Positions 4,245 through 50,761 of a DNA stretch of 64,000 nt are shown in pieces (the first letter of the stretch is position 1; each line of letters starts with the position of its first letter). The notes beneath the pieces were generated by a model that was given only the letters and a program-made list of their open reading frames with translations, ran no database searches and was not told the origin of the DNA. The position numbers and the translations under genes are program-made. Origin of the DNA: Bacteroidales bacterium (GTDB lineage Bacteria > Bacteroidota > Bacteroidia > Bacteroidales > UBA932); NCBI GenBank assembly GCA_017445015.1, contig JAFSVL010000028.1, positions 124,001 through 188,000 on the forward strand, written 5' to 3'.

Positions 4245-4248
4245 GGGT

Positions 4249-5556: not shown

Positions 5557-5569
5557 ATCGCCGGGCACC

Positions 5570-6474: not shown

Positions 6475-6609
6475 ATGAAAAGAAAAGAATACCAGAGGCC
6501 TGATGCCAATCCTCTGATTATCGGGAATATGGCTATCAGCTGTACGAGCAGCAACTATACGAACAGCGCCGTGGAAGACGTGACCATCGAAGATGAATAT
6601 GAATGGTAA
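6475..6609 (+). CDS. Small peptide (44 aa) preceding a fimbrillin-type lipoprotein
   Basis: An ATG-to-TAA ORF encoding 44 residues, beginning MKRKEYQRP, containing SCTSSNYTN in the middle and ending in an acidic, aromatic tail (EDEYEW). It starts 12 bp after the SDR stop and ends one base before an ATG (6611) in frame with the fimbrillin-like gene. It resembles the 46-aa ORF at 47515-47655 in length, in the basic K-x-Y-x-R-P start, in C-[TD]-S-S followed by N, in the acidic tail and in its place just upstream of a fimbrillin lipoprotein. Short peptides of this look are common in Bacteroidales genomes but I know of no assigned function. Real coding is inferred from the paralogy and spacing. 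Confidence 0.6.
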   Translation: MKRKEYQRPDANPLIIGNMAISCTSSNYTNSAVEDVTIEDEYEW

Positions 6610-6622
6610 AATGAATGCAGCT

Positions 6623-29561: not shown

Positions 29562-29681
29562 ACAAACGGGTAACAGAAATTGCGGTAATCTGCGCCGAAC
29601 TATCCCGTCTGGGGCGCAATTTGTTTATGATTATGGAGAATGATAGGCCATCGGATTTTTGAATATCCCATAAATTATGAG

Positions 29682-29689
29682 TAAATTTG
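29682..29689 (+). promoter_or_regulatory. Predicted -7 box for the DeoR-GH106 operon
   Basis: TAAATTTG fits TAnnTTTG, and TTTTTG at 29656-29661 supplies a -33-like element 20 bases upstream. The DeoR start is 34 bases downstream. Confidence 0.6.
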
Positions 29690-33782: not shown

Positions 33783-35045
33783 CTATTTGCAGCTATACAC
33801 CCGGGATTCGGATTTGATCGTGTACATTTCGTCCCTGTTGTCCAGCATGAAGACCCGGAACTGATCTCCGCCGGGGTCCACGCGGATGACCACATGACCG
33901 TCATACCCCGCACACTTGGCATACACATCCTTGTTCGCATCCATGGTACTGTCCCAGTTCTTGGTCAGGTAAATATCTTTCACCCACACCTGCTGGAAGA
34001 GATAGGTAAGAATGTCCGGATCGGCATGCTTGATATCGAAACAGGGGATGACAATGACACGGGGATTAAACCCCTGACTCTTCATGCTGGTTCCCCATGA
34101 GTTCGTATTCATGTGATGGTTGCTCTTGAAGGCCTCGAGCCGCTCGACATAGTCCCTGCAGTAGAGCGCCTGCATGTTCTGGGGCTGAGAGACCAGGTCG
34201 CCAGCGGCGATAAAGTCGAATTTTCCATATTGCACGTGAAAGCCGCAACACTGTCCGTTCTCACTTCCTGCTTCGCTGCCCTTGATAATACCATTTCCGT
34301 CGCTTCCCTTCTGGTATGCCTTCCCGTTGCCCACGTGGTTGAATACGCGGAAATTCGTGTACTTGTCCTTGGTGGCTCCGGTGAGGACGATCTGCCGGTC
34401 GGTCCCGAGATTGTAACGCTCGGCAACCAGACCCTTGTTCGCTACCGCATATTTGACGAATTTGATGAAATTCGGCGTCGCCTTAGATTCCGTGCACGGG
34501 GGAAAGATGGACGAATCGTCATCGTAGGAGGGATAGCCACGGTCAATCAGTTTCCTGAACGGGACCAGTTCGTAGAGGCCGGAGAAGCCGCACAACTGAT
34601 ACTTCCCCTCGGGATGGACGGGATTCGAGGAGTGGGTCTCGCCCATATGGTCGATGTGGAAGTGGGTCAGGAAGGCATAGTCGATTTTCCCCTCCGACGA
34701 AGCCGGGAGGAAATGCTGGATGTAGCGGGCGTATAGCTCGTACACGCGGGACTTGTCGTCGGGACGCTGGGGATGCTCGTCGCCACTGTGTGTCTCTCCG
34801 GCGTCCGCAACCAATGAAGTGCCGTCCGGGAAAATATACAGGGCGCACTCTCCCCGATTGGTACTGATGTAGTGTATATCCAGATATCCCTCGCTCCAGG
34901 AGGGCATCGTCTTTCCGACGAGGGACTCCGTATCATCTCCCGGCAGGTTGTCCCCCCAGGGCATCGTCTCCGGATTCTTCTGTCCACAGGAGACAAGGGT
35001 CAAAAAACAGCATAAGATGGATAGTGGCAGATAGCTTCTAATCAT
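33783..35045 (-). CDS. Metallo-beta-lactamase-fold surface lipoprotein (copy 1)
   Basis: A 420-aa lipoprotein. The start at 35045 gives a lipobox (CCFLTLVSC, Cys20); an ATG at 35066 would overlap the upstream gene. The body carries SWSEGYLDIHYISTNRGEC, FPDGTSLVADAGE, the metal motif THFHIDHMG (His128, His130, Asp132, His133), IAAGDL and EAFKSNHHMNTNS. The order (polymer-sensing N-strand, H-x-H-x-D-H, G-G/A-DL, HH) resembles the ComEC C-terminal domain and the pneumococcal phosphorylcholine esterase Pce, so a hydrolase acting on phosphodiesters is possible. It is the last gene of the leftward SusCD operon, 11 bp after copy 2. Confidence 0.78.
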   Translation of the reverse strand: MIRSYLPLSILCCFLTLVSCGQKNPETMPWGDNLPGDDTESLVGKTMPSWSEGYLDIHYISTNRGECALYIFPDGTSLVADAGETHSGDEHPQRPDDKSRVYELYARYIQHFLPASSEGKIDYAFLTHFHIDHMGETHSSNPVHPEGKYQLCGFSGLYELVPFRKLIDRGYPSYDDDSSIFPPCTESKATPNFIKFVKYAVANKGLVAERYNLGTDRQIVLTGATKDKYTNFRVFNHVGNGKAYQKGSDGNGIIKGSEAGSENGQCCGFHVQYGKFDFIAAGDLVSQPQNMQALYCRDYVERLEAFKSNHHMNTNSWGTSMKSQGFNPRVIVIPCFDIKHADPDILTYLFQQVWVKDIYLTKNWDSTMDANKDVYAKCAGYDGHVVIRVDPGGDQFRVFMLDNRDEMYTIKSESRVYSCK

Positions 35046-35056
35046 GGCAGGTTTAT

Positions 35057-36259
35057 TTATTCGCAATAAAAGGGACCGTCACGGTGGAGCACCCTGTATT
35101 TAGGGTCACAGTCATCGAGCACATATACATAGTACTTCTTCCCACCGGGCAAGACGCGGATGACTACATGGCCGTCAAGGGATGCGGCTTTCTCAGCGAG
35201 TTCAGGCATCTCCTCAAGAATACTGGGATGGGTGCTGGTGATATACAGGGACCTGGGGCCGCTGTAGCCTGCTTCAGAGAAGATATTCTCCCGCAAGACC
35301 TTCACCCAGGGCTTGTGGGAATCAAAGGCCGGACAGACGATGACCCGGGGCTGAAGGACTGCCAGGGTCAAGGTGTCCATGGTATTCCACGCCATGTGGT
35401 GACCGGCCTTCATCGCCTCCACCTTTCGGCCTATCGACCGGGCCATCGGAAGTTCCAGCGTGAGGTCGTGGAGATCGCCGCCGGCATACCAGTCGAAGTC
35501 CCCGTAACTGAGCAGAATGGTGCAGGAGTTGGCATTCTCCCGCGGCCCTTTCTCCTTGCGGTCGTACGGATCCACCACTTTCTCCCCGTCCCAGTAGCAG
35601 CCGTTTACGGCAATGTTCAGAATCCGGAAATCCGGATACTTCCCGGGACGGTGGCGAAGGCCGAGCTGGGAGCTGGAGCCAAGCGCGAACTTCTGGGCCT
35701 TGAAGCGATTGCGCGAAGTCCCGTATTGCATGTAGCGCGCCCAGTTTTTAACCGTCCGCTTGCCGAAGAATTCATCCGTCGAAGGATTATAATCCGGCCA
35801 GGAACGATCAATGACATAGCGGAAGGGCAGTTTGTCGTTGAGGGATGTAATCCCCGTCAGCACGTACTTGCCCTCCGGATCCCGGGAGAAACGTTTCTCC
35901 ATCGCGCCCATATGGTCGATATGGTAATGCGTCAGGACCATATAGTCCAGTGTATCCCGGCCCACACGCGGCATGAAATGACGGATATACCGGCTGCAAG
36001 CATCGGTAGTACGGGTCAGGGAATCCGGCCGGGGATAGACCTGCGGATACTTCGGGTTGGCAGTTTCCACCTCGCCGCAGTCGATCAGCATGGTGGTGCC
36101 GTCCGGGAGCACATAGTAAGCACATTCCCCCCGTCCGGTACTGATAAAATGAATATCCAGATATCCTTCCCTCCATGCCGGGAGCTTTCGGCAGCGTGCC
36201 TCGGCAGAGCTCATCAGGCCAAGGATCACGACGGCAATACAAATCAGAATTCTTCTCAT
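35057..36259 (-). CDS. Secreted metallo-beta-lactamase-fold protein (copy 2)
   Basis: A 400-aa protein with a signal peptide (MRRILICIAVVILGLMSSAEA) and no lipobox cysteine, unlike its neighbours. Shared core: WREGYLDIHFISTGRGEC, LPDGTTMLIDCGE, VLTHYHIDHMGAM (His111, His113, Asp115, His116), WYAGGDL, VEAMKAGHHMAWNT and VIRVLPGGKKYYVYVLDD. All first-sphere histidine/aspartate residues of the family are kept, so it should bind metal. Its start overlaps the stop of the fimbrillin/FISUMP-like gene by 4 bp, mirroring the fused arrangement in the protein at 42803-45712. Confidence 0.78.
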   Translation of the reverse strand: MRRILICIAVVILGLMSSAEARCRKLPAWREGYLDIHFISTGRGECAYYVLPDGTTMLIDCGEVETANPKYPQVYPRPDSLTRTTDACSRYIRHFMPRVGRDTLDYMVLTHYHIDHMGAMEKRFSRDPEGKYVLTGITSLNDKLPFRYVIDRSWPDYNPSTDEFFGKRTVKNWARYMQYGTSRNRFKAQKFALGSSSQLGLRHRPGKYPDFRILNIAVNGCYWDGEKVVDPYDRKEKGPRENANSCTILLSYGDFDWYAGGDLHDLTLELPMARSIGRKVEAMKAGHHMAWNTMDTLTLAVLQPRVIVCPAFDSHKPWVKVLRENIFSEAGYSGPRSLYITSTHPSILEEMPELAEKAASLDGHVVIRVLPGGKKYYVYVLDDCDPKYRVLHRDGPFYCE

Positions 36260-37866
36260 GGCTGTTTTGCATATACGGGTTTAACACAAAAACCTGCCCG
36301 GCTGCCGAAGGCGGCATTCTCATGCGGGAAGCTGGTTTTGGTAGAAAGATAGAGCATGGCCGGATAACAGAGGCCTTCTGTGGCCTTTTCATGCGTTATG
36401 ATAACTGACGACCAATAGGTCCCCTGATCAACTTGTTTGTTGATTGTGAAGGGCTGTTTGTCGTAACGGCGGCCGCTCTTGACAAAGAACACACCCTTGG
36501 CGAGGTCTTCGTCCGTGAGGGGGGTCAATTCCAAATTCTCCACCCTTTCCTTCCCCGTACCGGGATTGGTGAAGAGAAAACCGCGCAATGTCTGATTGTC
36601 CGGGGTAAAGTAGCTCCCGTACTGGACGGAGGCCTTGTCAAGGAGGTTTTGGATCTCGCTGCGGGTCGGCAAGCGCCAGCTGCCGTTGGACGCCCACCAG
36701 GCAATGTCGCCATACTTGGCCGCCTCGAAATCCGTCGTTTCACTCGTGCAGGCCTGGTCCAGGAACATCTTGCCGGAAATATCGGTTCCCACCGCGGCGT
36801 TGATGCACTTGAGCGCATCGTTGGAGAAGGGATCCTCGATGCCGCCGAAATTAAAGTGGTCGTACAAGTCGTATGATTGGGCGGAGAAGGTGACGTCGGT
36901 GCCGGTCGCATTCTCGCAGTTGACATAGTACCATTGCTGAGGGGCCAGCCTCCAGTCTGTGCGGAAGCCTTCAGCCGTATCGCCCTTGCTGTGTAGCAGG
37001 TTCCCCTGGGCCCAGTAGGTTCCGCAGACAAAGACGGCGCCCGGCACTTCAGGCACCACTTCCTCATAGTCGGGCAGGGTCAATTCGACAGAGCGCTGGG
37101 CGCTGCGGGCGAGAAAGGACGCGACGCCCAGCAGTTCCCCTTCCGTCAGGACAGCACCTTCGCTGTCAAGCGAAGCCACATGGAGGGACGCATATTCTGC
37201 AACCGGGACGGCTACGGAATAAATAACCGACGTCTGGCCGTCCCCAAGGGAAGCAACGAGTTTCGTCGCGCCTTCCGGGGCAGGAACGCCCTTTTCCATG
37301 GCATCATCCACGTTAAAACTGATGTTGCCCGACAGCGCCTTGTCCGCAGAAATCTCCAGGCGGACAGCCCCGTAAGGGATGTTGCCGACTTTCACGCTCA
37401 GGTAACTGAGCAGCTGGACAAATCCAATTTCGTAGCTTTCCCCGATACGTGCCGACATCAGCGGACATCCCCCCTTCCCGATGTCTTCGGAAAGGACAGC
37501 CGAGACTTGGTTGCCGGAAACCTGCAGGATGGCGGAAGCAGGATAGAAGGCATAGCTTCCGAGCTGCTTGCCGGCGGGAAGTTCTCCCTTGAAAAAGGCC
37601 CTGCGCGTCCCTCCGGTCCCATCCAGTGTCAATACCGCCAGCGAGCCGTCCGTACAGATGACCGCAATCTGGTCTCCCCTTTCCCAACGGGCCTCTCCGG
37701 ATAAACTCATCGTCGCTTTGGCAGAGCAGTTCTCCATCGACGCCAGCAACGTCACTTCACCGCTGCGGTGAAAAGTGGTATCAGGAACGAATTCCGCTTC
37801 GTTCCCTTTCTTTGCACACGACACCATAAGAAGGAGCGCGGCAAAAAAGCATCCTGTTCTTTTCAT
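36256..37866 (-). CDS. Fimbrillin-like / FISUMP-like surface lipoprotein
   Basis: A 536-aa lipoprotein (MKRTGCFFAALLLMVSC, Cys17). Residues about 25-275 resemble a fimbrillin N-terminal domain (LSGEARWERGDQIAVICTDG, FFKGELPAGKQLGSYAFYPAS, VELTLPDYEE). Residues about 285-536 look like the Fibrobacter major paralogous (FISUMP) type: WAQGNLLH, TDWRLAPQQWYY, GDIAWWASNGSWRLPTRSEIQNLL, FFVKSGRRYD, YWSSVI. Such proteins are usually surface-exposed binders in Bacteroidetes. It lies 4 bp after SusD and overlaps the MBL gene downstream, so it belongs to the same transport or binding complex. Confidence 0.74.
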   Translation of the reverse strand: MKRTGCFFAALLLMVSCAKKGNEAEFVPDTTFHRSGEVTLLASMENCSAKATMSLSGEARWERGDQIAVICTDGSLAVLTLDGTGGTRRAFFKGELPAGKQLGSYAFYPASAILQVSGNQVSAVLSEDIGKGGCPLMSARIGESYEIGFVQLLSYLSVKVGNIPYGAVRLEISADKALSGNISFNVDDAMEKGVPAPEGATKLVASLGDGQTSVIYSVAVPVAEYASLHVASLDSEGAVLTEGELLGVASFLARSAQRSVELTLPDYEEVVPEVPGAVFVCGTYWAQGNLLHSKGDTAEGFRTDWRLAPQQWYYVNCENATGTDVTFSAQSYDLYDHFNFGGIEDPFSNDALKCINAAVGTDISGKMFLDQACTSETTDFEAAKYGDIAWWASNGSWRLPTRSEIQNLLDKASVQYGSYFTPDNQTLRGFLFTNPGTGKERVENLELTPLTDEDLAKGVFFVKSGRRYDKQPFTINKQVDQGTYWSSVIITHEKATEGLCYPAMLYLSTKTSFPHENAAFGSRAGFCVKPVYAKQP

Positions 37867-37870
37867 ACTA

Positions 37871-39673
37871 TCAATAACCTGGGTTGTTGTTTTCGGGACC
37901 GATCAGCGGGTTGGTGACCATTTCGTCGTAAGGGAACGGCCAGAGTTCATCCTTTCCGCTGACAAATTTCTTTGTCGTATGGAGCCGGGCGTCGAAGGCT
38001 TTCCCGTCGAAGGTGGTTTCGCCGTCGAAGGTCACTACCCAGTCCCTGTCAATCACCGGTTTGGCATTCGTCAGTACCTTGCCGAAGGCCGGTGCATACT
38101 GCGAGGCATTGCCGGCTTTCACGGCTACGATTTCATCCGGATTCTCGGAACTCTTCCAGCGCCGGATATCAAACCATCGGAAGCCCTCGTTGCAAAGTTC
38201 GACTTTGCGTTCATAGCGGAGGGCGGAGCGGAGGTCGGCCACGTCCGTGGCGGTGACGGGCGGCATGTGAACACGGTCACGGATGCGGGTAAGTTCCGCT
38301 GCGGCGCGCTGCTTGTCTCCGCCGTCCCACTCGATGTTCGCCTCGGCGTCGATCAGCAGCAGCTCGGCCAGACGCATGATCGGGCAGTCCAGCTCATCTT
38401 CGTAATCCCCTCCCGTCATCACACCGTAGTAAACCGGATCGCAATACTTCCTCCAGAGGAAGCCTCCCGGACCCTGTACTCCGTTGGGACCATATTCGCT
38501 CTTGTTCCCCGATACGTCGTTGTTGTTGACGTATTCTTTCTTCGCGTAGTCATAGACATTCTTGTCGGACGGGTCGATGGAGAACTGCACGTTCATGCAG
38601 CGGGAATTGCTGCGTACCGTGTACAGGTCCAGGCGCGGATCACGGTTCTTCCAGGGATCTTTCCAGTCAAAGAGGGGCGACTCCGTAATCGGCAGCCCGT
38701 CAGTACACTGGAAGGTGCACATCATGTGCAGGGATGGTCCCACGGCGGCGGCACCGTTATGGACACGGGAGCCGAAGGCATAAATGCCGTGATGGACATT
38801 GCTTGCGGCCAGTCGGTTGAACTGAATCGCCCAAATCCACTCCTTGCTGTTTTTCTCTGCGTCAAAGCCGAACAGCGGCGTGGGATCCGGCTCTCCTTCG
38901 GCATGCGTGGGATAATAAGTGCAATCCAGAGGGGTCAGGTCGTAAACGCCGTCGGAGAGCGCAAGGGCTATCCCTGCGTAACGTGCGGCGTCCTCATAAC
39001 GGCCCCAGTTGAGACAGATTCTGGCCTTGAGCCCGTAGGCGGCCACACGCCCAAGCCGCGCAGTCCCCCACTCCGCCGCAGGCCACGCGACGGGAAGATG
39101 GTCTATCAACTCATCGTCCATGTCGGAGATTATCCTTTCAATAATGGTCGCTTTGGGCGTCCTGGGATAGGCATTATCTTGTAGATCAAGGGAATGGTCG
39201 ATAAAGGGAAGATCGCCGTACATCTGGCAGCCGAAGTCATAGAAGTAGGCTCTCAGGCATAACAGCTCGGCTTTCAGCTGACAGTAGCTGTCTTCGCTCA
39301 TTTCATCCTTGATGGAGTCCAGTCTGTCCAGGACCAGATGGATGCGGCCGATGGCTTTGTAGAGCCGGGCGTATGTATCGGTGACGCCGGAATAGGTAGA
39401 CGTGATGATCGACTGGGTATAGTCCGGCCACTTGGACAGCACCGTGCGCATCGCAGCCACGTCGGTGAGATTATCCAGCCATCTTTCCGGGAACGGCTGA
39501 CGGTATTGTTCGTTGTTGGCCAGACTTTTATAGGCGGCGAGAACACCGGCGAGAGCCTCTTTTTCATTGGCGGGGAACGTTCCTGTCGAAGGACCGGAAA
39601 GCGGCGCCCTGTCCAGGGAACAGCCCAGCGTCAGAGAAGCGGCCAGACAAAGATACAGTATATTCTTTTTCAT
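37871..39673 (-). CDS. susD: SusD/RagB-family nutrient-binding lipoprotein
   Basis: A 600-aa lipoprotein (MKKNILYLCLAASLTLGC, Cys18) that caps the SusC pore at the cell surface. Seen here: the TPR-like helical start (FPANEKEALAGVLAAYKSL), RLYKAIGRIHLVLDRLD, LKAELLCLRAYFYDFGCQMYGDLPFID, YGLKARICLNWGRYEDAARYAGIAL, and near the C-terminus LLLIDAEANIEW and ALRYERKVELCNEGFRWFDIRRWK, all typical SusD blocks. It is paired with SusC 12 bp upstream. The ligand cannot be read from the sequence. Confidence 0.95.
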   Translation of the reverse strand: MKKNILYLCLAASLTLGCSLDRAPLSGPSTGTFPANEKEALAGVLAAYKSLANNEQYRQPFPERWLDNLTDVAAMRTVLSKWPDYTQSIITSTYSGVTDTYARLYKAIGRIHLVLDRLDSIKDEMSEDSYCQLKAELLCLRAYFYDFGCQMYGDLPFIDHSLDLQDNAYPRTPKATIIERIISDMDDELIDHLPVAWPAAEWGTARLGRVAAYGLKARICLNWGRYEDAARYAGIALALSDGVYDLTPLDCTYYPTHAEGEPDPTPLFGFDAEKNSKEWIWAIQFNRLAASNVHHGIYAFGSRVHNGAAAVGPSLHMMCTFQCTDGLPITESPLFDWKDPWKNRDPRLDLYTVRSNSRCMNVQFSIDPSDKNVYDYAKKEYVNNNDVSGNKSEYGPNGVQGPGGFLWRKYCDPVYYGVMTGGDYEDELDCPIMRLAELLLIDAEANIEWDGGDKQRAAAELTRIRDRVHMPPVTATDVADLRSALRYERKVELCNEGFRWFDIRRWKSSENPDEIVAVKAGNASQYAPAFGKVLTNAKPVIDRDWVVTFDGETTFDGKAFDARLHTTKKFVSGKDELWPFPYDEMVTNPLIGPENNNPGY

Positions 39674-39685
39674 GATTCCACCATT

Positions 39686-42600
39686 TTAGAATTTCACCTC
39701 GAGACCGAAAGTATAGGTACTCACCAGCGGATAAACATCACCGATAGAGCCGGTCGTAGCTCCCTGAGACCCTCCCTGGTAGGCGGTTTCGGGGTCATAC
39801 CCCTGATAGTAGTTGTCCAGCGTGAACACGTTGGTTGCATTGGCAAACAAGGTCAAGTTGCTCAGCCGGACCGCCTTGAGCCACTTTTTCGGGAGAGACC
39901 AGCTGAGCTGGATATTCTTGAGCCGCAGGTAGGAGGCATCCGCCATCCAGAAAGTGGATACTTTCCGGTTCAGGTCGCTGACATACGAGAGTCTCGGAAA
40001 CTTGGCGCCGGGATTATCAGGCGTCCAGTTGTCCATGTGTTCGCTCCGGAAGGTATTGCCGGATATACAGGGCTGGGTAAAGCCGCCGCTGATGTAGGCG
40101 TCCGCCTTTCCGACACCCTGGAACTGGAGGTTGAGATTGATGCCGTTCCAGCCCAGGTCGAGAATCAGGCCATAGGTGTACCTGGGAATGAGACTCCCCA
40201 CAATCTGCTTGTCCTGGTCGTCGATCTTTCCGTCAGGAATCGCCTTTCCATTATCATCGAACGCGCCGGCGACATCTTGATAGACCAGGTCCCCCGGACG
40301 GGTAATCTGGGAATACTGGGGGCAGTTTTCATTGATCCAGTCCGCCTGTTCCTGGGTCTGGACGATACCGAGGCACTTGAGCAGGTACAGCGAATTGATG
40401 GAGTAGCCTTCCTGGTTACGAATCACGCCCGAGGTTCCATAAGTCCCCTTCATGTCCACGATCTTGTTGATGACGTCGGAGACGTTCGCATTGACACCGA
40501 GACTCCAGAGACCCCAGCTGTCATGGTAGCCTAGTCCCAGTTCCCAGCCCCGGTTGGTTACGACGCCGGCATTCTGGTAGGGGGCGTTGAGGCCGATGGA
40601 TGAGGGAATGTCGAGTTTCATCAGGATACCATCCGTCACTTTGCTGTAATAGTCGGCCGTGATCGTAAATTTGTTCCACAGTGCAGCATCCAGGCCGATA
40701 TCAGCCATTCGCGTCGTTTCCCAGGTAAGGTTCTCGTTGGCAAGGTCCGTCTGTGTGACGATAGAATGGATACCGCTTCCCGCCCAGATGCTGCTGATGG
40801 CAAGAAGTTGGGTCGTGGGGTAAATGGATCCGATGTTCTGGTTACCCAGCAGACCGTATGAGCCGCGCAACTTCAGTTCCGTGAGCGTGTTCTTGACACT
40901 CCTCATGAACCCTTCCTCCGTTATGCGCCATGCGGCGGACACGGAAGGGAAGGCGCCCCAGCGGTTCTTACGGATGAAACGGGAGGAACCATCATAGCGG
41001 ATGTTCGCCTCCAGGAGATAGCGTTCCTTGTAATTGTAATTAACCCTGCCGAAGAAGGAAGCCAGGGCCAGCTGGGTATGACCGCCGCTGTTGTCCTTGA
41101 ACTCGTTGTCCGCACCGGCGCTGATGACATCATACTGGGGATAATCATAGTCGCGACGGCTTGCGCCCAGGTCCTGGACATCATTCTCCTCGTAGGAGGC
41201 CCCGGCGAGGATTCTGAGATTATGGTCTCCGAACGATTTCGACACAAGGGCCGTGACCTGGTAAAGGCCGCTGTAGTTGAAGGTGTCGGTTTCTTTCAGA
41301 TAATTGTATTCCCGGTTGGCGGTAGCCGCCACGGTACCATAGGGGTCGGAATGATAGTATACAAGGTCGTAAAAGTCGTGGGCCCGGACAATGGAAAGGC
41401 GGGGGGCCGCCTTGACCTCCAAGGTCAGCCACTTGGCCGGCTTGTACGCAAGGGAGACGGCCGCGCCGAGCCGAAGACTCTTGCGCTGGATTACGCCACC
41501 TTCGCCGAGCTCAATCATGGGAAGCGGATTGGTCGTCCCGCCGGTGAAAGCGGCATAGCTTCCGTCCGACCACTGAGCAAGCGACAGGGGGTCCTTGGCG
41601 TTCATGAAGTTCAGCGCATTGTCCTGGGCTATGCCTTTATGCCTGTTTGTCAGCGTAGCGTTGATGTCCACTTTCAGTTCCAGGCGGTCATTCAACGAGA
41701 CATCCATGTTGTTCCGGAGGTTGATTCGCTTATAATCAGACTGCTTGACAATGGCGTTCTGGCTGAGATATCCGACGGAGGACATGACGCGGATCCTGTC
41801 GTTACCGGCCGTCATCGAAAGCACATGGTTATGGGTGAATCCGTCCCCCGTGAGGATGCGTTTCTGCCAGTCCGTTATCGGAAAGGCATCGGGGTCAAGA
41901 TAGTGGTTCTTGTAATAATTGTCGATGTACTCGTCGGTGTAGATGGTGGCCGCGCCGTCGTTCAGCGCCGCCCGCTGGGAAAGTTTCATATACTCCAGCG
42001 GAGAAGCGACGGAGGGGTATACGACAGGTTTCTGCCATCCGACATAGCCGCGGTAGGTGACGGAAGCCTTCCCCTTGCTGCCGCGCTTGGTGGTGACGAG
42101 AATCACGCCGTTGGCGGCCCGGTTTCCATAAATGGACGAGGAGGCGGCATCTTTCAGGATGGAGATCTGCTCGATCTGCGTGGCATCCAGCACGCCAAGG
42201 TTGCCTTCCACGCCGTCGATCAACACCAGCGGCGCGCAATCGGAACCGCCTAACGAGCCGATGCCGCGGATCTGGATGTTAAGGTTTTCGACGCCCGGCG
42301 CACCGCCGCCGGCCGTGACCGTCACGCCGGGGGCGACGCCCTGCAGCGCAGAACTCACCTGGGAAATCGGCTTGCGGCTGAAGTCGTCGGTAGAAACGGA
42401 AGCCACGGATCCGGTCAGGTTGACCTTTTTCTGGGTGTCGTAGCCCACGACCACCACTTCCTCCAAGAAATCAGTAGCCGGCTGAAGTTCAATTGTATAG
42501 GACTCGCGTCCGTCCACACTCACTTCTTTGTCGAGAAATCCCAGGAAGGAGATGGTCAGCACATCACCTTCACGGGCGGCGATACGGAAAAAGCCGTTGT

Positions 42601-42784: not shown

Positions 42785-42802
42785 GATTATTAATCCTTTG
42801 TG

Positions 42803-45712
42803 TTAATGGCAGGTATAAGGTCCATAGCTCGCTTCCACGGAATAGGAAAAATCCGTGTCCCTGAGCTTATATACATAGAATTCATTGCCTCCGGGGCTGA
42901 CCCGGATGACAAAATGCCCATTGTAGTCCTTGAATTTGTCTGCAAGATTTTCGATTGGCCCCCCTTCCTTCTGGACGAAAGTGCCGTCCAGAAGACCGGA
43001 GTGGAGGTTGGTCGAGAAAAGGTCGCCATACTGTCTGTGGTTCGACAACGCCGGATCTCCCGGCTTGTCCTTGTCGCTGATCATCGCGACCGTCACCTTG
43101 GGCTGGAGAATGGCCGCCGCGCCGGCACTGAAGGTATTGTAATACATGTGATGGTTCGCCTTCATGGCCTCCACCTTTTTGTCCAGGCCTGAAACAATCA
43201 GCGGCATGACAGGATTCTGGCATCCGCAGTCACCGCCCGTATAGTAGTCGAAATTCCCGTAGGAAATCAAGTGGGTGAGGCTGACGGTGTTTTCGCCCAT
43301 GGTTCCCGCGTAGGTGCCGAACGCGCTGCCGTTCCAATATTTTCCGTTGCCGCCGATATTGGCCACGCTGCAGGCATAGGAGCTGTCGTACTTGAGTTTC
43401 AGCTGCTTCTTGTAATTGCCGTTCGCGTTCATATTGACGGCGAACCATTCCATCCCGTCCACGTCTCGCCGGTAAGCGGCGAATTTCCGGTATTCCTCCA
43501 GGAATTCGGCGTTGTAGTCACTGGTTTCCGGAACGCCTGAAGGTCCCAGGCGGTCCACCAGCTTTTTAATGGGGAGATCATCATAGACGGCCATCACTCC
43601 GGTACGACAGTAGCCGTTCCCGGAAGTTCCGTATTCATCCCGGACGGAACCTACATGGTCGATATGGAAATGGCTGAGCACGAAAAAATCAAGATAATCA
43701 TGTCCCGTGGCCTTGAGAAAATGCCGCGCGTAGGCCGTATAGACCTTGAAGGGGCGGACAGAAGCCGACGGCTTACGTGCGACGGCTTCGTCGGAACTGG
43801 TTTCATACTCTCCTGCGTCAATCATGATCGACGTTCCGTCGGGCAGGATGACCAGAGAGCACTCCCCCCGTCCCGCATTGATAAAATGGATGTCCAGATA
43901 GCCGGGGCTCCAAGAGGGGAGCGTATTCCCATCCGGCTGCGGGAGCGGATCGGGAACCGCTTCGGACACCGTTGTATTCAGCAAGGGCCTGACAGGCAGG
44001 CATTTCTGAACATGGCCGACGCCATAGCCGGAATAAGTCGTGCCCGCATCGCTGTTCAGGTCCACGGCATATCCGTAGTCGCAGGTGTTGGCCGCCCTGA
44101 ATCCGAGAACTGAAGTGGAGTAACCGCTCTGCGGATATTTCTCCATATCCAGCCCCGAGAAGGTGGCGCTGCGATAGTAGCCCTGGCTGTTCACCTGAAC
44201 AATCCGGTCGGTGTTTTTGCCGCTGATGAAACGCCCGCGTCCGGCCTTGGGCAGGAACACCCCGCTTTCCAGATCGGCCTCCGTGAGCGCCACCGCCGTC
44301 GTGGTCAAGGTCGAAACCTCCCAGGAAGGCGTGGAGGTCAGCAGGATTCCGTAAATCCGGTTGCCGTCCTTCTCCACATAGCCCGCCCGGCCCGTGGCGT
44401 AATCCGGACTGACGGCACTGCCGGCGCGGAGCTTCACGATTTCAGCGGATTTCGGCATGCGGTACTGTCCCTTGCTGGCCCAGAAAGCGACGTCTCCATA
44501 AAGGGAAGAACCACTGGCGAGCGCTCCTCCATCGGGCGTAGCAAAACGGGCGTCCCCCTCGACGACGGCCGCATCCAGCTCATCTCCGCTGCCGGAAGAG
44601 ATGCTGAAGACGCGTCCGGAGATATTGTACTTCGCCGTTGTAGGGAGCATAAAGCCGGAAGAAGCCAGCCAGGCGTCACCGGCCAGGCCGCCCCAGGTAA
44701 AACGGTCGAATGCCATCGTGCTCTGGTTATGCTGAAGGCCCGTGCCGGTCCCGACTTCATCCCAGCCAAAGAATTCGTAAGGTGCGGAGGCGATACGCCA
44801 ACCGGTCTGAAAGCCCTCGGTCGTGCTTCCGCCGCTTTCCGCCATCAGATTTCCCGCAGCCCAGCGTATGCCTTCCACTTTACGGATGGCGCCGCTGCGC
44901 GTAACGCGGCTGCGAGCGTTCAATGCGGGCACCACCACATAGTCCCCGGCGGTCAGGCTTCGTGCAGATGCTCCGAGACGAAGGCTTTCCACCCCCTCAA
45001 TCGGCGTTTCATCGCCGTCCAGCAGGCAGAGCGAAAGTTCGGAGTACGCTCCCGGCGGAAGAGCGAGACGGAAATGAAGGTCTCTGCCATAGCCCTCGCC
45101 GCAAGGGAAGGTTATCCTTCGGGAAGAGGGAACGGCCTGCGTCTCCAGGGGGCCGGCGGCCAAGGCGTCAAAGGAAAGCGTGCCGCAGATTCGCACATTT
45201 CCAGCCCGTACGATGAGCGCCCGGGCGTAGGCGGGGATGTCGTGGAGGGTCAGGTCCACGACGGCCGCGATGTGGTGGAAGTGAAGATTCTCAGGCTTCC
45301 CCTCGGCGTAGCTCACACTTGAAGCCAACACGCAGGGAACCGCGTCCGATCGCACTTCCGTCCAGGGGAGCACCATCGTTCCGGCCGTATCCCCGGCCAA
45401 TGCATAGGGATAGACCGCCAGATTCCCGGGTGTCCCGCTCACCGCTCCGGTGAACGTACCGTCGGAAGTTCCCGCCCCATCCGTAAGAGAGAGAACAAAC
45501 TTCTCTCCTTCCGTATTGTACACAGCAATCTCGTCTCCTTCCGTCCAGCAGGTTTTGCCCGAAGGTTCAACGGAAAGTTTGGTCGCAGGCAGCTGCGCTC
45601 TCAGGGAGAGAACGGCCGTCGGCGCTTCGGGAGCGGTAGGCACCGGCGTCTCCCGCTCGCAGGAAAAAGCGGGCGGGAGACAGGCGAGCAATATCAGCAG
45701 CTGCCTTTTCAT
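42803..45712 (-). CDS. Fimbrillin/FISUMP-like lipoprotein fused to a metallo-beta-lactamase domain
   Basis: A 969-aa lipoprotein (MKRQLLILLACLPPAFSC, Cys18). Domains in order: a fimbrillin-like region (about 25-270: TKLSVEPSGKTCWTEGDEIA, LSLTDGAGTSDGTFTGAVSG, RSLTAGDYVVVPALN); a FISUMP-like region (about 280-590: IRWAAGNLMAE, GDVAFWASKGQYRMPKSAE, LPVRPLLN); and a C-terminal MBL domain (about 605-969: SWSPGYLDIHFINAGRGEC, LSHFHIDHVG at 679-688, YYTGGDCG, VEAMKANHHMYYNT). The MBL half aligns with the two separate MBL proteins of this operon, and the front half with its two fimbrillin/FISUMP neighbours. The fusion shows that the two parts work as one unit at the cell surface. Confidence 0.78.
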   Translation of the reverse strand: MKRQLLILLACLPPAFSCERETPVPTAPEAPTAVLSLRAQLPATKLSVEPSGKTCWTEGDEIAVYNTEGEKFVLSLTDGAGTSDGTFTGAVSGTPGNLAVYPYALAGDTAGTMVLPWTEVRSDAVPCVLASSVSYAEGKPENLHFHHIAAVVDLTLHDIPAYARALIVRAGNVRICGTLSFDALAAGPLETQAVPSSRRITFPCGEGYGRDLHFRLALPPGAYSELSLCLLDGDETPIEGVESLRLGASARSLTAGDYVVVPALNARSRVTRSGAIRKVEGIRWAAGNLMAESGGSTTEGFQTGWRIASAPYEFFGWDEVGTGTGLQHNQSTMAFDRFTWGGLAGDAWLASSGFMLPTTAKYNISGRVFSISSGSGDELDAAVVEGDARFATPDGGALASGSSLYGDVAFWASKGQYRMPKSAEIVKLRAGSAVSPDYATGRAGYVEKDGNRIYGILLTSTPSWEVSTLTTTAVALTEADLESGVFLPKAGRGRFISGKNTDRIVQVNSQGYYRSATFSGLDMEKYPQSGYSTSVLGFRAANTCDYGYAVDLNSDAGTTYSGYGVGHVQKCLPVRPLLNTTVSEAVPDPLPQPDGNTLPSWSPGYLDIHFINAGRGECSLVILPDGTSIMIDAGEYETSSDEAVARKPSASVRPFKVYTAYARHFLKATGHDYLDFFVLSHFHIDHVGSVRDEYGTSGNGYCRTGVMAVYDDLPIKKLVDRLGPSGVPETSDYNAEFLEEYRKFAAYRRDVDGMEWFAVNMNANGNYKKQLKLKYDSSYACSVANIGGNGKYWNGSAFGTYAGTMGENTVSLTHLISYGNFDYYTGGDCGCQNPVMPLIVSGLDKKVEAMKANHHMYYNTFSAGAAAILQPKVTVAMISDKDKPGDPALSNHRQYGDLFSTNLHSGLLDGTFVQKEGGPIENLADKFKDYNGHFVIRVSPGGNEFYVYKLRDTDFSYSVEASYGPYTCH

Positions 45713-45724
45713 CTTCTCCGGGGA

Positions 45725-47512
45725 TTAATCGACGAGCACCGGACGGATGGCGTTGCCGATAGGTGTCTGGCCGCAGTTCGTTTTGCTCAACTTGATGGTA
45801 TAGCCATAACTCATGGCATTGCCCTCGGCAAAGCAAACGGCCGTTACGCAGTCTTCATACCCTGCATTCAGGCTGCCATAGGTCCCGGACCAGTAGGCGC
45901 CCCAGTTGTTGAAGCGTTTGATTCCAGTAGCGTCGAAACTTGTCGTCGAATTCTTGGTGCGTTCTCCGATCTTGGGAAGGAACAGCCCGCTTTCGATATC
46001 GGCTGCAGTCAGTTCGACGGCCGTCTCATTGTAGGTCGTCGTCTCCCAGGAAGGGCAGGAGGTAAAGAGAATACCGTTAATCTTTTCACTCCCTGCCATA
46101 TAGTATCCCGCCTGCATATGGGCATAGTCGCTGCCCGCTCCTGCATTGTTCTTGGCGTAGAGCTTGTTCAGTTCGGCCTTGTGCGGCAGGCGGTACAGTC
46201 CTTTGCTGGCCCAGAAGGCAAGGTCGCCGCAGAGCGAGGGGTTGCTGTCCGCAAAATCATTGGCCGCAAAGCGGTCGTCCCCCGTAAGTTCCGTCAACGT
46301 GGAAATATCCGTGGCGGCACCACTGAAGACCTTCCCGCAGATGTCAAAGTTCGCCACCGAGCTGGTCACCTTCTGGTTATGCACCCGCGAGGCGCGTCCT
46401 ATCGTCCCCCAGCTGAAATAATCCCAGTGCGTATAGGTGGATCCATCCTTGTACGTTGCAACATTCAGGGAAAATTCAATATTGTCCGGATCCTCCGCAG
46501 CCGAGATATCATTGAGCAGCATATACTGGCTCTCCCACTGATGGTCATACAGGTTCCAGCCGCTCTGCCAGCCCTCTCCGGTTGTGCCGCTCTTCCAGGC
46601 CCTGAGATTGCCCGTCGCCCATTTCACGTCTTCCACCTTGACATAACCGCTGCGCGTTACCTTGCTGCGGACATTGACGGACGGCATCGCCACGTAATCC
46701 CCCGCCGTCAGCGTGGAATAGGCCGCGGGAACGGTCATTCCCGTACCCTCGATCGGGTCTTCATCTCCGTCCACCACGCGGATCCGGTAGTTCGAATAGG
46801 TGCCGGCGGGCACCGGAACGAAGATCTGCACCGTTTCTTCAGCCCCGTAGGCCGTCTTGTAAGGGAAATAGACAAAGAGGTCCCGTGTAGTGCTGCCGTC
46901 CACAGGGGTCAGTCCGTCCAGATTGGCATTGACCGTGAACGTGCCGCTCAGCGGGAGACTCGCATCAATCGTCTTCAGCGCACAGGCATAGGCCGGAAGA
47001 TCCTGAAGGGTAAACTCCATGACGGCCGCGATGTGGTGGAAATGCAGCTGGTCGGAAAGCGGACTCTCCTCCCCCGTCGTGACGGAAGAAGCCATCAGCA
47101 GCGGAATCTCATCGCTCAGCGCAATATAGCGGGGAATCACGATGCGGCCTTTCGTATCGCCGGCATAAGAAGCAGGAAAAACCGCCAGGTCGTCCAGGGT
47201 ACCTTCGATGACACCGGAGAACGTGCCGAAGGAAGTCCCGGCGCCGTCGGTAAGGGAAAGCTCATACTTGGTTCCCTCCGTGTTGTAGACAGCAATCTTA
47301 TCCACCGCCGTCCAGGCGGTCTTGCCGCTGGTGGCGACGGAAACCTTGGTCTCTGGGATGGAGGCGGTAAAAGTGACCGCACGGGGAGCGTCACTGACTT
47401 CCGTCTCGGGCGGAGTGTTTTCATTTACATCCGCCTGAGGGGTAAGCTGCTTCTGGCAGGAAGAGGCAAAAATGACGGATAAGCCGATCAGGGTTAAAAA
47501 TGTCTTTTTCAT
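45725..47512 (-). CDS. Fimbrillin-like / FISUMP-like surface lipoprotein
   Basis: A 595-aa lipoprotein. The start at 47512 (MKKTFLTLIGLSVIFASSC, Cys19) is preferred over 47560, which lies inside the preceding small ORF. It has the same two-part plan as its neighbours: a fimbrillin-like half (TKVSVATSGKTAWTAVDKIA, ELSLTDGAGTSFGTFSGVIE, TLTAGDYVAMPSVNVRSKVT) and a FISUMP-like half (VKWATGNLRAWKSG, CGDLAFWASKGLYRLPHKAE, YWSGTYGSLN, GNAIRPVLVD). No MBL domain. It is only 2 bp after the 46-aa peptide and 12 bp before the fusion gene. Confidence 0.75.
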   Translation of the reverse strand: MKKTFLTLIGLSVIFASSCQKQLTPQADVNENTPPETEVSDAPRAVTFTASIPETKVSVATSGKTAWTAVDKIAVYNTEGTKYELSLTDGAGTSFGTFSGVIEGTLDDLAVFPASYAGDTKGRIVIPRYIALSDEIPLLMASSVTTGEESPLSDQLHFHHIAAVMEFTLQDLPAYACALKTIDASLPLSGTFTVNANLDGLTPVDGSTTRDLFVYFPYKTAYGAEETVQIFVPVPAGTYSNYRIRVVDGDEDPIEGTGMTVPAAYSTLTAGDYVAMPSVNVRSKVTRSGYVKVEDVKWATGNLRAWKSGTTGEGWQSGWNLYDHQWESQYMLLNDISAAEDPDNIEFSLNVATYKDGSTYTHWDYFSWGTIGRASRVHNQKVTSSVANFDICGKVFSGAATDISTLTELTGDDRFAANDFADSNPSLCGDLAFWASKGLYRLPHKAELNKLYAKNNAGAGSDYAHMQAGYYMAGSEKINGILFTSCPSWETTTYNETAVELTAADIESGLFLPKIGERTKNSTTSFDATGIKRFNNWGAYWSGTYGSLNAGYEDCVTAVCFAEGNAMSYGYTIKLSKTNCGQTPIGNAIRPVLVD

Positions 47513-47514
47513 GG

Positions 47515-47655
47515 CTATTCCTCCTCTATTTCCCAATCGCCATAGCGATAATTGACACAATCAAGGTTGGAAGCACTGGAATCACAAAGTGACTGGGTGC
47601 GAAACCGGATTGCCGATGTTTCGGGCCGGATGTACGTTTTGTTTTTGGGTTCCAT
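47515..47655 (-). CDS. Small peptide (46 aa) preceding a fimbrillin-type lipoprotein
   Basis: An ATG-to-TAG ORF encoding 46 residues, beginning MEPKNKTYIRPETSAIRF, then SLCDSSASN and an acidic tail (YGDWEIEEE). The stop lies 2 bases before the ATG of the lipoprotein gene, which suggests translational coupling. It resembles the 44-aa peptide at 6475-6609 in layout and in its neighbour. Cysteines at two positions and the lack of a signal peptide are visible; the function is unknown. The function could also be purely regulatory (a coupling leader). Confidence 0.6.
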   Translation of the reverse strand: MEPKNKTYIRPETSAIRFRTQSLCDSSASNLDCVNYRYGDWEIEEE

Positions 47656-47683
47656 GTCGTTTGGTTAGTTATAATTTTAGTTG

Positions 47684-49570
47684 TTATTGCCGGTTAATCA
47701 CGTCGAAGGCATATACATGGGCCTGATCAGCCCCCCAGGTGGAGGTGACGACCAGCCGGACGGCGTCCGCCTTGACAGGAGAGAATGCGACCTTCCTCAG
47801 CCGGAGGAAGTTCTCGCCATCTTCATACACGGTCTGCCACTTTCCTTTGACCCGGACATCCAGCCGGAACCCACGGGCCATCATGGGAGGCATCGGCGAA
47901 CGTTCCGTAGTGGCCTCGAGCTTGCGCATCCTCTTGGCGCGCACCTTGAGGCCCGAATCGAAGACGAGACGGACAGCATTGAATTCCACCGGCCTTTTCC
48001 ACTGGTAGAGAATACCCTCCTCGTCGCCGGGAGAAATCCATACGCCGTTGTCACCATCGTCGCGGGTACGGTCAATTCCGTTCCGCAGGTTCTCCGGAAC
48101 GTTCATGGCACTTAGAGTAAGCGGCGAAACCTTGCGCCAGCGGTACGGGAGCATGCAGTCATCATCCTCCAAGGTATCCTGAAGCTCGGCGATATGATTC
48201 TTCCTCAGTTCAGCGGGTGTCTCTCCATAGCGGAGCGCAAGGGCGGCGCCGGTACCTGCCGCCTGGCCCAGCAGGGCGCAGGTGGACATTACGCGGGTGG
48301 CCGAAAGGCCCATGTGGGTACAGGAAATGTCCCTGCCCGCAAACATCAGGTTGGGGACGTTTACCGAGTAGAGACAGTCGAACGGTATCCCGAAGATGCG
48401 GGGCGTCGCATAGTCGATGCTGATATAGCCCTTCTTGTGGAAGGCATCCGGGTCGTGGTCGTCCAGCGCCCAGCCGCCGTAGGCGACGACATCTTCAAAA
48501 TGCCCGCCGCTTACGACGTCATTTTGACTGAGGATATGGGGGGCAACGTAACGGATGGACTCCCGTTTCCCGGGAAGGGAGCCGATCCAGTCCAGGTCAT
48601 AGCCCTTGCAACGGCCGTCAGGATGATTTTTCATGTATTCCCAGACGCCGTAGGCAATCCGCTTCAGTTCAAACTGGATTTCATTGGCATCGGCGATCGT
48701 GTCCATGTTCCCGCCGAATTCAATCCACCAGAAATTGTTGTCTTCGGGATACAGGCGCTTATAGACGAACTTTGTCCCGGGGATGGTGGATTGCGGCGTC
48801 GCATAGTTGAAATCATCGTCCGTAAAATGGTAAGCCCAGTCCGGTGCACGGAAGGGATGGTCCTCCGTGGTCTTTCGGAGCTGCAGCAGGATGGAATTCC
48901 CCATGGTCTTGGCATCACCCCCCTTCTGGAGGCAAGTCTCGCCGAATTCTGAAGGGAATTCCCGGCCATGGCGGAAGCGGGCGCCGCTCAGGCGCAGGAT
49001 GCCGTCGCCGGTACAGTCCGCAAAGAGTTTACCTTTAATATGGTACCGGGTGTAGGCGTTGGTGTTCCAGGCCGTCACGGCGGCGATGGTCCCGTCGGCG
49101 TTCATTTCCACCCCGTCCACCGACGTATTGAGAAGCAGTTTGATGCGCGGTTCCTCGATCACCGTTGAATAAATGACATCATCCCAGAGCGTATAACGCT
49201 GTAGCGGGTTGTAATAGAAGTTCTTGAGCTGCAGTTCTTCCAGGATGCCCGCCTCCATGTCCTCGTCGTTTTTTACGCCGACGATTCCCATTCTCATTTC
49301 GCTGGAAGCGTTTCCGCCCAGCACAGGACGGTCCTGGAGCAGAATGACATCGGCCCCGTGGCGGGCCGCCGACACCGCCGCACACACCCCGGCGAGTCCT
49401 CCTCCGCACACAATCAGGTCCGCCTGAAGACTGACCTGCGTGATGACAGGGGAATTTTTCTCCGTCTTCATCGTCCCGTAGGGCGACGCGACCGTCGTAT
49501 CCCGCACGGACAGCGCAGAAGCCGGCATGCCGGTAAGCAAGGTAGCAAGAAGGAATGAAAAGTAGCGCAT
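47684..49570 (-). CDS. Secreted FAD-dependent oxidoreductase (FAD_oxidored type)
   Basis: A 628-aa protein with a signal peptide (MRYFSFLLATLLTGMPASALS), so it acts in the periplasm or at the surface. Seen here: the FAD-binding LIVCGGGLAGVCAAVSAARHG (GxGxxG-type) near residue 52, RPVLGGNASSEMRMG, LFADCTGDGILRLSGA, and a second nucleotide-side block MFAGRDISCTHMGLSATRVMS, as in PF12831 proteins found in many Bacteroidetes glycan loci. The last ~130 residues (GILYQWKRPVEFNAVRLVFDS, DAVRLVVTSTWGADQAHVYAFDV) look like a discoidin/F5-8-type sugar-binding domain. Substrate unknown. It lies between gpsA and the 46-aa peptide with 18- and 28-bp gaps. Confidence 0.82.
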   Translation of the reverse strand: MRYFSFLLATLLTGMPASALSVRDTTVASPYGTMKTEKNSPVITQVSLQADLIVCGGGLAGVCAAVSAARHGADVILLQDRPVLGGNASSEMRMGIVGVKNDEDMEAGILEELQLKNFYYNPLQRYTLWDDVIYSTVIEEPRIKLLLNTSVDGVEMNADGTIAAVTAWNTNAYTRYHIKGKLFADCTGDGILRLSGARFRHGREFPSEFGETCLQKGGDAKTMGNSILLQLRKTTEDHPFRAPDWAYHFTDDDFNYATPQSTIPGTKFVYKRLYPEDNNFWWIEFGGNMDTIADANEIQFELKRIAYGVWEYMKNHPDGRCKGYDLDWIGSLPGKRESIRYVAPHILSQNDVVSGGHFEDVVAYGGWALDDHDPDAFHKKGYISIDYATPRIFGIPFDCLYSVNVPNLMFAGRDISCTHMGLSATRVMSTCALLGQAAGTGAALALRYGETPAELRKNHIAELQDTLEDDDCMLPYRWRKVSPLTLSAMNVPENLRNGIDRTRDDGDNGVWISPGDEEGILYQWKRPVEFNAVRLVFDSGLKVRAKRMRKLEATTERSPMPPMMARGFRLDVRVKGKWQTVYEDGENFLRLRKVAFSPVKADAVRLVVTSTWGADQAHVYAFDVINRQ

Positions 49571-49588
49571 GACGATTCTATATTGGGG

Positions 49589-50641
49589 CTATAGGGTGTT
49601 GTCGAAGGTGAAACTGTCCCAAGGCAGCGCCGCATCCTTTCCGTGGTCCAGCACATCCGCCACGTGGGTCAGCATCGGGAATCGGGAGACGTCTATCTGT
49701 CCCATCTCGGCTTTCCGGCAAAGGGCCTTATACACCCTGCGCGCAACGACGATACTTTCCAGGGTTACGCCGGAAAGGATTTCCATCGCCTCGTCGTAGG
49801 TCTTGCCCTCGCCCAGCAGAATACCAATCTTCCGGGTACGTCCGCCATAGACGGTTACATAAAGGTCGCCAATCCCGATATTGACGCAGTCTTCCTCCGC
49901 CTTCTGAATCGCGAGAAGTTTGCGCATCTCCTTTGTCGCCTGATAAAAAGCTCCCGCCTGGGAATTGAAATGGAGGCCGGCGTCGGGCCCTTTTTCCCGG
50001 TTGACCAGACCGACTGTCATGGCAATGGCCAGTGCATAACCGTTCTTCAGGGCCACGGCACTTTCCAAGCCGTTGACATCGTTGGTCAGCGAAATATGGT
50101 AGTAGGAAGTCTGCATGGCCTCCTTCATCATCTTCAGAGAGGCGGTGTCTTCGCCGCAGAAAGCCACTTCACTGTGGTCATGGTACACCAGTTCGTAGGA
50201 GGTGCAGGGGCCGCCGATGGCATTAACCGTCCGGTGGATTCCTTTTTTCGCCAACGCCCGCTTCCAGTACTCCGGATAGGAAATAAGGGTTCCGTCATCC
50301 AGATTAATCAGGCCTTTGGTCACGGACAGCACCGGTACGGAGAGGTCAAGTTCACTGAGTACGGCTTCCAGAAACCATTCGACGCCAAAGGACGAAACGC
50401 CTCCGATAATAAAATCCGCACCGCTTACTGCCTCTTTCCACTGGTCGAACTGATAATATTCAACGCCTTCCGGGAAATCCGACACAAATTTGGGGTGTCT
50501 GTTCGTTTTACGACAGGCGCCGATGATGTCCTTGTCAAGGGGCGTACCGACCAGCCTCACCTCGTTTCCGTTTTCCCTTGCAGGGAAGGCCAGCGCCGAC
50601 CCCATCATTCCCGCTCCGATAATTACGATTCTCTTCTTCAT
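49589..50641 (-). CDS. gpsA: NAD(P)H-dependent glycerol-3-phosphate dehydrogenase family
   Basis: A 350-aa cytoplasmic dehydrogenase interconverting glycerol-3-phosphate and dihydroxyacetone phosphate. Seen here: the Rossmann motif IVIIGAGMMGSALA (residues 5-18), LSVTKGLIN, the catalytic Lys region VALKNGYALAIAMTVG, and NIGIGDLYVTVYGGRTRKIG (the family's GxGDLxxT block is conserved). It is the first gene after the predicted promoter at 50692-50699 of a ten-gene SusCD operon, an unusual place for gpsA. It may therefore be a catabolic copy that handles glycerol-phosphate from the imported ligand, or act on a related 2-hydroxy acid phosphate. Confidence 0.82.
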   Translation of the reverse strand: MKKRIVIIGAGMMGSALAFPARENGNEVRLVGTPLDKDIIGACRKTNRHPKFVSDFPEGVEYYQFDQWKEAVSGADFIIGGVSSFGVEWFLEAVLSELDLSVPVLSVTKGLINLDDGTLISYPEYWKRALAKKGIHRTVNAIGGPCTSYELVYHDHSEVAFCGEDTASLKMMKEAMQTSYYHISLTNDVNGLESAVALKNGYALAIAMTVGLVNREKGPDAGLHFNSQAGAFYQATKEMRKLLAIQKAEEDCVNIGIGDLYVTVYGGRTRKIGILLGEGKTYDEAMEILSGVTLESIVVARRVYKALCRKAEMGQIDVSRFPMLTHVADVLDHGKDAALPWDSFTFDNTL

Positions 50642-50691
50642 AATGGTTATCCTTTCGTCTCCGCTTGTTCACGCAATTCCAAGCAACTCCA

Positions 50692-50699
50692 CAAATTTA
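50692..50699 (-). promoter_or_regulatory. Predicted promoter of the gpsA-to-MBL operon
   Basis: On the minus strand TAAATTTG fits TAnnTTTG, with TTTG (50719-50722) 19 bases upstream as the -33 element. It lies 50 bases before the gpsA start, and no other good box was seen within the next 17 kb of tightly spaced leftward genes. Confidence 0.6.
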
Positions 50700-50761
50700 T
50701 ATCAAAAATTTATATTTTCAAAAAAATGAAAGAGTTTTGAAATAATATCGGAGAAAATTTT

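Follow-up and report, generated by a model that had tools for sequence, protein, structure and literature searches.

What does a SusCD operon feed on when its recognised hydrolase candidates are metallo-beta-lactamase-fold (MBL) proteins and not glycosidases? The question is raised by a ten-gene operon in a stretch of 64,000 nucleotides from a Bacteroidales bacterium (assembly GCA_017445015.1, contig JAFSVL010000028.1, positions 124,001 to 188,000), here called the window. The window is part of a single contig; the draft genome measures 2.3 Mb and is 79.75% complete. We propose a SusCD locus whose target polymer, most likely of the glycerol-phosphate type, has phosphodiester bonds in its backbone or its decorations. 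From gene content and comparison of related loci the probability of this reading is put at roughly 0.53. The operon may thus feed on polymers linked by phosphate, of which Gram-positive cell walls offer examples.

The ten leftward, tightly spaced genes run from 50641 to 33783, as described in the first-pass annotation. Neighbours overlap or are at most 28 bp apart (in transcript order, gaps of 18, 28, 2, 12, 18, 12 and 4 bp, a 4-bp overlap and 11 bp, the last computed with an ATG start for MBL_1, i.e. P0001). The lipoprotein signal of P0001 begins at this ATG (35045), which is therefore the probable start in place of TTG 35066. For the gene at 45725 (P0007) the sequence indicates that ATG 47512 is probably the start. 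The promoter which had been placed ahead of the operon was recovered as one of four full pattern matches in the window (both strands, spacing 17-24); the stretch is AT-rich. SusC, SusD and the secreted FAD oxidoreductase also stood as annotated, and the adjoining SusC and SusD genes are those of a SusCD-type polysaccharide utilisation locus (PUL). 'FIS' is a label coined in this analysis for a nameless family comprising P0007, P0003 and the N-terminal part of the P0006 fusion. The features of the operon are:

50692..50722, minus strand: Bacteroidetes-type promoter match TTTG-N19-TAAATTTG, read 50722-50692 (pattern match to the sequence)
49589..50641, minus strand: GpsA-like dehydrogenase P0010 of a divergent clade (PF07479 and PF01210)
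47684..49570, minus strand: exported FAD-dependent oxidoreductase P0009 (PF12831, E 5.6e-79; signal peptide judged by eye)
47515..47655, minus strand: 46-aa peptide P0008 (relatives upstream of FIS genes)
45725..47512, minus strand: FIS lipoprotein P0007, from its ATG (no Pfam match at E 0.01)
42803..45712, minus strand: FIS-MBL fusion lipoprotein P0006 (MBL domain about 42803-43930)
39686..42784, minus strand: SusC, TonB-dependent transporter (TIGR04056, 908.6 bits)
37871..39673, minus strand: SusD lipoprotein (PF07980, 137.6 bits)
36256..37866, minus strand: FIS lipoprotein P0003 (aligns with the P0007 family, 24% identical)
35057..36259, minus strand: exported MBL-fold protein P0002 (PF00753, 29.3 bits; best PDB sequence is Pce)
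33783..35045, minus strand: MBL-fold lipoprotein P0001, from its ATG (similarity to P0002 and motif residues)

The operon has SusC, SusD, lipoproteins and one promoter match in common with starch- and glycan-type PULs; however, no glycoside hydrolase or lyase was matched by Pfam in its ten proteins. In the proposed reading, cleavage of the polymer would fall to the three MBLs. Their HxHxDH motifs are intact, as had been noted; the downstream Asp and His-His motifs are also present, and all eight motif residues are found in the three window proteins. In an alignment of 49 MBLs, H111, D115, H116, D262, H287, H288 and H364 were kept throughout and H113 in 46; a lipobox-like motif was present in 23. 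P0002 scored above the PF00753 cut-off of 22.7 bits, whereas P0001 (18.3) and P0006 (12.9) remained below it. P0001 and the MBL domain of P0006 are 36 and 37% identical to P0002, respectively.

When the 49-member MBL profile was run against PDB sequences, Pce came out on top (E 7.1e-15; PDB 1wra, 2bib), followed by ComEC (4e-12), and the Pce alignment spans both motif blocks. This bore out the likeness to Pce and ComEC pointed out in the first-pass annotation. Neither a classical beta-lactamase nor an AHL lactonase was named among the 12 matches at E 0.1. With phmmer alone the Pce match was weak (E 4.5e-5); family members are 30-55% identical to P0002. Pce, or CbpE, is the pneumococcal teichoic-acid phosphorylcholine esterase. 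It belongs to the same MBL family and both motif blocks align, yet the kinship is remote, Pce being reached by profile or by the weak phmmer match. The window MBLs also differ in residing in a SusCD operon, and the choline-binding repeat module had no Pfam match at E 1 in the window proteins. Similarly, the C-terminal MBL domain of ComEC is the second-best PDB family, but the competence membrane domain of ComEC was not matched in the window proteins by Pfam or NCBIfam. This kinship argues for the window MBLs as putative phosphodiesterases. A quick tree of 54 MBLs had long branches; in it the fused type formed one clade (9/9) and the third-position type another (7/7). The three window MBLs were located in three separate places, which we read as a sign that they may be enzymes with different jobs. 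As a side observation, the NCBIfam model of the anti-phage 6A-MBL enzyme weakly matched the MBLs at 35057-36259 and 42803-43930 on the minus strand (E 2.2e-5 and 1.1e-4, far under the model cut-off).

Kinship with ComEC invites a different interpretation, i.e. an extracellular nuclease system in which DNA or RNA is broken down by the MBLs and the fragments enter through SusCD. According to excerpts of PMC8579336, the ComEC domain has measured phosphodiesterase activity, acts as a nuclease and has a motif II histidine ligand swapped for an aspartate. Three of the 49 MBLs (L053, L058, L059) have a ComEC-like Asp at the position of H113, which favours a nuclease. The window MBLs, however, retain HxHxDH. 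Five of 30 FIS proteins matched the NCBIfam model of a T9SS-dependent surface endonuclease (NF052644, best E 4.3e-6), which speaks for a nuclease system and against a glycerol-phosphate polymer. On the other hand, among 40 scanned neighbour proteins there was none with a nucleoside- or nucleotide-uptake family as its best match. We consider a nuclease system very unlikely.

The FIS proteins had been called fimbrillin/FISUMP, an identity which we could not uphold. None of 30 family members matched any Pfam family at E 0.01, and none of the three NCBIfam families touched by them is FISUMP or fimbrillin; models for both are contained in the Pfam and NCBIfam libraries. Besides the endonuclease model, a lipoprotein model and a choice-of-anchor model were touched by one member each. 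P0003 had one sub-threshold match to Lcl_C (E 0.035), and the family had no match among PDB sequences. Peptides of 39-52 aa related to P0008 are located directly upstream of 11 of the 40 FIS genes examined (a part of the 60 listed). Most peptides of this type have a Cys, and near the C-terminal end is a G(D/E)W motif; beyond 47515-47655 (minus strand) in the window they were seen in L010, L035, L042, L046, L047, L048, L052 and L054. A somewhat similar short peptide (6475-6609, plus strand) overlaps the start of a 654-aa frame (6593-8557) which had no match to the FIS profile.

Is the association of MBL and SusCD genes a peculiarity of this genome? The MBL family was found in 43 of 299 genomes of the window's family (34 of the 143 of good quality) and at 75 loci in a scan of named genomes. 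Gene runs were taken for 59 of these loci (L004-L062; L063-L078 were left out) and 58 gave one. SusC or SusD was present in at least 32 of the 58, FIS in at least 24 and the FAD oxidoreductase family in at least 10, all lower bounds due to contig ends and the limits of the fetched stretches. For positional analyses, 35 of the 43 MBL-positive family genomes and 29 genomes from 32 of the 75 loci were joined; of these 64, G300, G303 and G315 were dropped as copies of G297, G295 and G248 (coordinates agree), leaving 61. Each of the 17 SusD homologues with at least 56% identity (the window's is one of them) has an MBL gene on its own strand no more than 5 kb away; as the genomes were preselected for holding the MBL family, this reflects tight linkage, not frequency. 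Of three SusD homologues at 48-49% identity, one is within 9 kb of an MBL and two are not. Linkage of MBL and SusCD is thus conserved in related genomes. In six loci (L004, L006, L007, L008, L013, L021) no recognised enzyme other than the MBLs lies between SusC and the last MBL.

Related loci also bear on the chemistry of the polymer. In L120, from the same genus, one strand carries GpsA, an unnamed gene, SusC, SusD, two MBLs, an FAD oxidoreductase (PF12831-type by weak similarity, 84 bits) and a GlpT-type transporter; this GpsA is 73% identical to P0010 and separated by 472 bp from the next gene. L018, L052 and L054 combine FAD oxidoreductase and MBL with a protein like glycerol-1-phosphate dehydrogenase (G1PDH), a GlpT/UhpC-type transporter and a HAD-IIA phosphatase. 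Three Bacteroides loci (L014, L015, L017) contain alkaline phosphatase, SusC, SusD, GDPD, a PF12831 oxidoreductase and MBL. L018 and L014 were scanned against family libraries and their respective relatives assigned by similarity. A second locus of B. oleiciplenus (L124) has SusC, SusD, MBL, GDPD and a GlpT-type gene. In Ereboglobus (Verrucomicrobiota; L121 and L036) five MBLs occur with FAD oxidoreductase, G1PDH and a calcineurin-type phosphoesterase; no SusC or SusD label was found within the stretches examined. Conversely, in L189 a SusCD pair of the same clade lacks an MBL and lies beside a calcineurin-type phosphoesterase and G1PDH; the opposite strand carries a GlpT-GDPD pair. A glycerol-phosphate or phosphodiester-bearing ligand had been suggested from the window alone. 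The related operons with GDPD, G1PDH, GpsA-clade or GlpT genes lend circumstantial support to it, and they are a minority. Modules away from the window's operon were also noted: GlpT-GpsA-GDPD (L131, L132), G1PDH-GlpT (L130, L138) and G1PDH-GlpT-GDPD (L139). L130 and a GpsA-GlpT pair (L129) are in the genome from which the window comes.

We compared the 58 MBL runs with 39 control runs, obtained from 40 SusCD stretches away from MBL genes which were hand-picked among the matches listed. GDPD, G1PDH, GpsA or GlpT-type genes were present in 9/58 versus 1/39 (Fisher P 0.037), any phosphate gene in 14/58 versus 2/39 (P 0.011). A random-placement analysis used MBL positions for 60 of the 61 genomes, without weak partial MBL rows, and rows of at least 77 bits for G1PDH (53) and 46 bits for GpsA (46); for GDPD and GlpT observed counts are lower bounds and expected counts derive from full tables. 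Within 1 kb of an MBL, at least 4 GDPD were observed versus 0.65 expected (P 0.004) and 3 G1PDH versus 0.13 (P 4e-4). Runs from 19 of 21 extra MBL regions, 6 of the 19 with glycerol-phosphate genes, were partly preselected for these genes and are unused as frequency evidence.

Several points weigh against a glycerol-phosphate polymer. The excess over controls is modest, and by the query proteins used 49 of the 58 loci have no glycerol-phosphate gene. Query proteins were drawn partly from the tested loci themselves, and the loci are not independent (L014/L015/L017 are near kin, as are L018/L052/L054); two of the three G1PDH cases at 1 kb are near kin. Association weakens with distance: for GDPD, P was 0.012 at 5 kb and 0.036 at 10 kb (observed counts being lower bounds), for G1PDH 0.007 and 0.023. 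GlpT was absent at 1 kb among the matches listed (0.67 expected); at least 5 were seen at 5 kb versus 1.93 (P 0.047) and at least 5 at 10 kb versus 3.13 (P 0.21). GpsA was absent at 1 and 5 kb and at 10 kb numbered 2 versus 0.42 (P 0.07). Family scores fell short as well: the L018 dehydrogenase-like protein reached 151.5 bits in its best NCBIfam match (2.9e-44; cut-off 413), the L018 transporter 291.5 bits with TIGR00881 (9e-87; cut-off 407.75) and P0010 99.8 bits versus a curated GpsA cut-off of 257 for the best-scoring model. Finally, GpsA enzymes are usually biosynthetic. A glycerol-phosphate theme occurs in several lineages, not in most loci.

The gpsA assignment held in that PF01210 and PF07479 both scored over cut-off; the protein belongs, however, to a divergent clade. 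Compared with 11 clade members, P0010 is 72-79% identical to nine and 58 and 62% to the other two, but 25-27% to the canonical GpsA of G107, G257 and G312. It retains the lysine of LKN, which we take to be the catalytic lysine motif of GpsA. Clade members are found in GlpT-GpsA-GDPD clusters (G282, G298), next to GDPD-like genes (G295, G297) and, in the window's own genome, next to GlpT. In some genomes a canonical-scoring GpsA is not listed; therefore, the clade may serve lipid synthesis there. For the operon we infer a catabolic role. The FAD oxidoreductase was considered as a marker specific to MBL operons and dropped, as only 5 of its 21 matches with at least 70% identity are linked to an MBL. 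For six of the others, G1PDH is some 6-8 kb distant; in L191-L195 the oxidoreductase and a G1PDH-GlpT pair are encoded on opposite strands and separated by further genes, and in L191 the gene adjoining the oxidoreductase is HerA-like.

GDPD and phosphatases next to MBL in several loci would also suit the scavenging of small glycerophosphodiesters or phospholipid head groups for phosphate and carbon. The model would be the SusCD 'Pus' systems of Flavobacterium. PusCD of F. johnsoniae (PUS I-IV) is the closest known kind; in excerpts of PMC8115612 it comes with phosphodiesterases and phosphatases, is induced by phosphate depletion and is proposed to act on lipid head groups and nucleic acids. 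The plan with SusCD is common to both, phosphodiesterases and phosphatases replacing the carbohydrate-active enzymes in PUS. These PUS enzymes are of the calcineurin, PhoA or other types, however, whereas the window operon has three Pce-type MBLs, FIS lipoproteins and a GpsA-like enzyme; the word 'metallo' is absent from the main text of that paper. Because the plan is common but the enzymes are Pce-type MBLs, we regard the operon as a putative variant of the PUS-like kind. SusD, several FIS lipoproteins and three distinct MBLs would point to a large polymer rather than to a small diester, and by the queries used 44 of the 58 loci lack any phosphate gene. Scavenging of small diesters is in our estimate unlikely.

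The statement that the locus has no glycosidase applies inside the ten-gene operon; a convergent rhamnosidase gene ends 2 bp away from it. The neighbours are:

30496..33780, plus strand: GH106 alpha-L-rhamnosidase, convergent neighbour (PF17132, 947 bits)
29724..30488, plus strand: DeoR-family regulator ahead of GH106 (PF00455, PF08220; promoter-like match 29658-29689)

Possibly, then, this is an ordinary glycan locus whose target is, e.g., a plant glycan containing rhamnose. Lactones or carboxylic esters would be the substrates of the MBLs, and the GpsA-like gene would be present by chance. The nearest relative of P0009 (83% identical, in G310) has a GH2 gene downstream on the same strand in its operon (L198), and the L024 run contains GH92, an alginate-lyase family protein and a melibiase-like protein. 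Yet the MBLs group with the phosphodiester enzymes Pce and ComEC, and in the six loci with MBLs as only recognised enzymes just FIS genes are found between SusD and the last MBL. GH106 was also examined as a constant partner and rejected: 32 of the 61 genomes have it, and in just six is it within 10 kb of an MBL (by eye). An ordinary glycan locus appears distinctly improbable. Because of GH106 next door and GH2 in one relative operon, the phosphate-linked polymer may also carry sugars.

For a phosphodiester-bearing polymer the operon products could cooperate as follows. SusD and the exported FIS lipoproteins would bind the polymer, the three exported MBLs, relatives of Pce and of the ComEC nuclease domain, would each cut different phosphodiester bonds and SusC would take up the resulting pieces. 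In the cytoplasm, the GpsA-type dehydrogenase would convert released sn-glycerol-3-phosphate to dihydroxyacetone phosphate. The exported FAD oxidoreductase may carry out some further step in the pathway.

Teichoic acid would be a candidate ligand. In B. subtilis, wall teichoic acid is a polymer of sn-glycerol-3-phosphate and lipoteichoic acid one of sn-glycerol-1-phosphate (Walter et al., PMC7086022, abstract). The polyrhamnose of Streptococcus mutans bears glycerol phosphate in the sn-1 configuration (PMC11754754, excerpts). The two dehydrogenases in MBL operons would fit these two kinds of glycerol-phosphate polymers. In a doubtful extension of the proposal, Bacteroidota and Verrucomicrobiota systems would eat Gram-positive wall polymers and be sorted by the handedness of glycerol phosphate. 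Operons with the GpsA clade would be directed at sn-glycerol-3-phosphate (wall-teichoic type), those with G1PDH at sn-glycerol-1-phosphate (lipoteichoic type or glycerol phosphate on streptococcal rhamnans); with its rhamnosidase neighbour, the window's operon would belong to the sn-3 kind. Verrucomicrobiota are included because one Ereboglobus locus has MBLs, without a SusCD match.

If the proposal of a phosphate-linked polymer is correct, gut and rumen Bacteroidales possess dedicated machinery to eat wall polymers of their Gram-positive neighbours, a nutrient source that would be overlooked by PUL catalogues which are based on glycosidase families. The large MBL family, with its 43 genomes and 75 loci, would gain a testable role. 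In the open-access literature, titles and abstract openings of the best matches describe no such locus.

Elsewhere in the window, a lyase locus at 19-6462 (plus strand) comprises chondroitinase-B family and alginate-lyase/heparinase-like proteins, an MFS transporter and an SDR. A Radical SAM/SPASM-like protein (52032-53042, plus strand) is encoded a few kb from a C10 peptidase of the streptopain family (55799-57577, minus strand), which carries its inhibitor domain.

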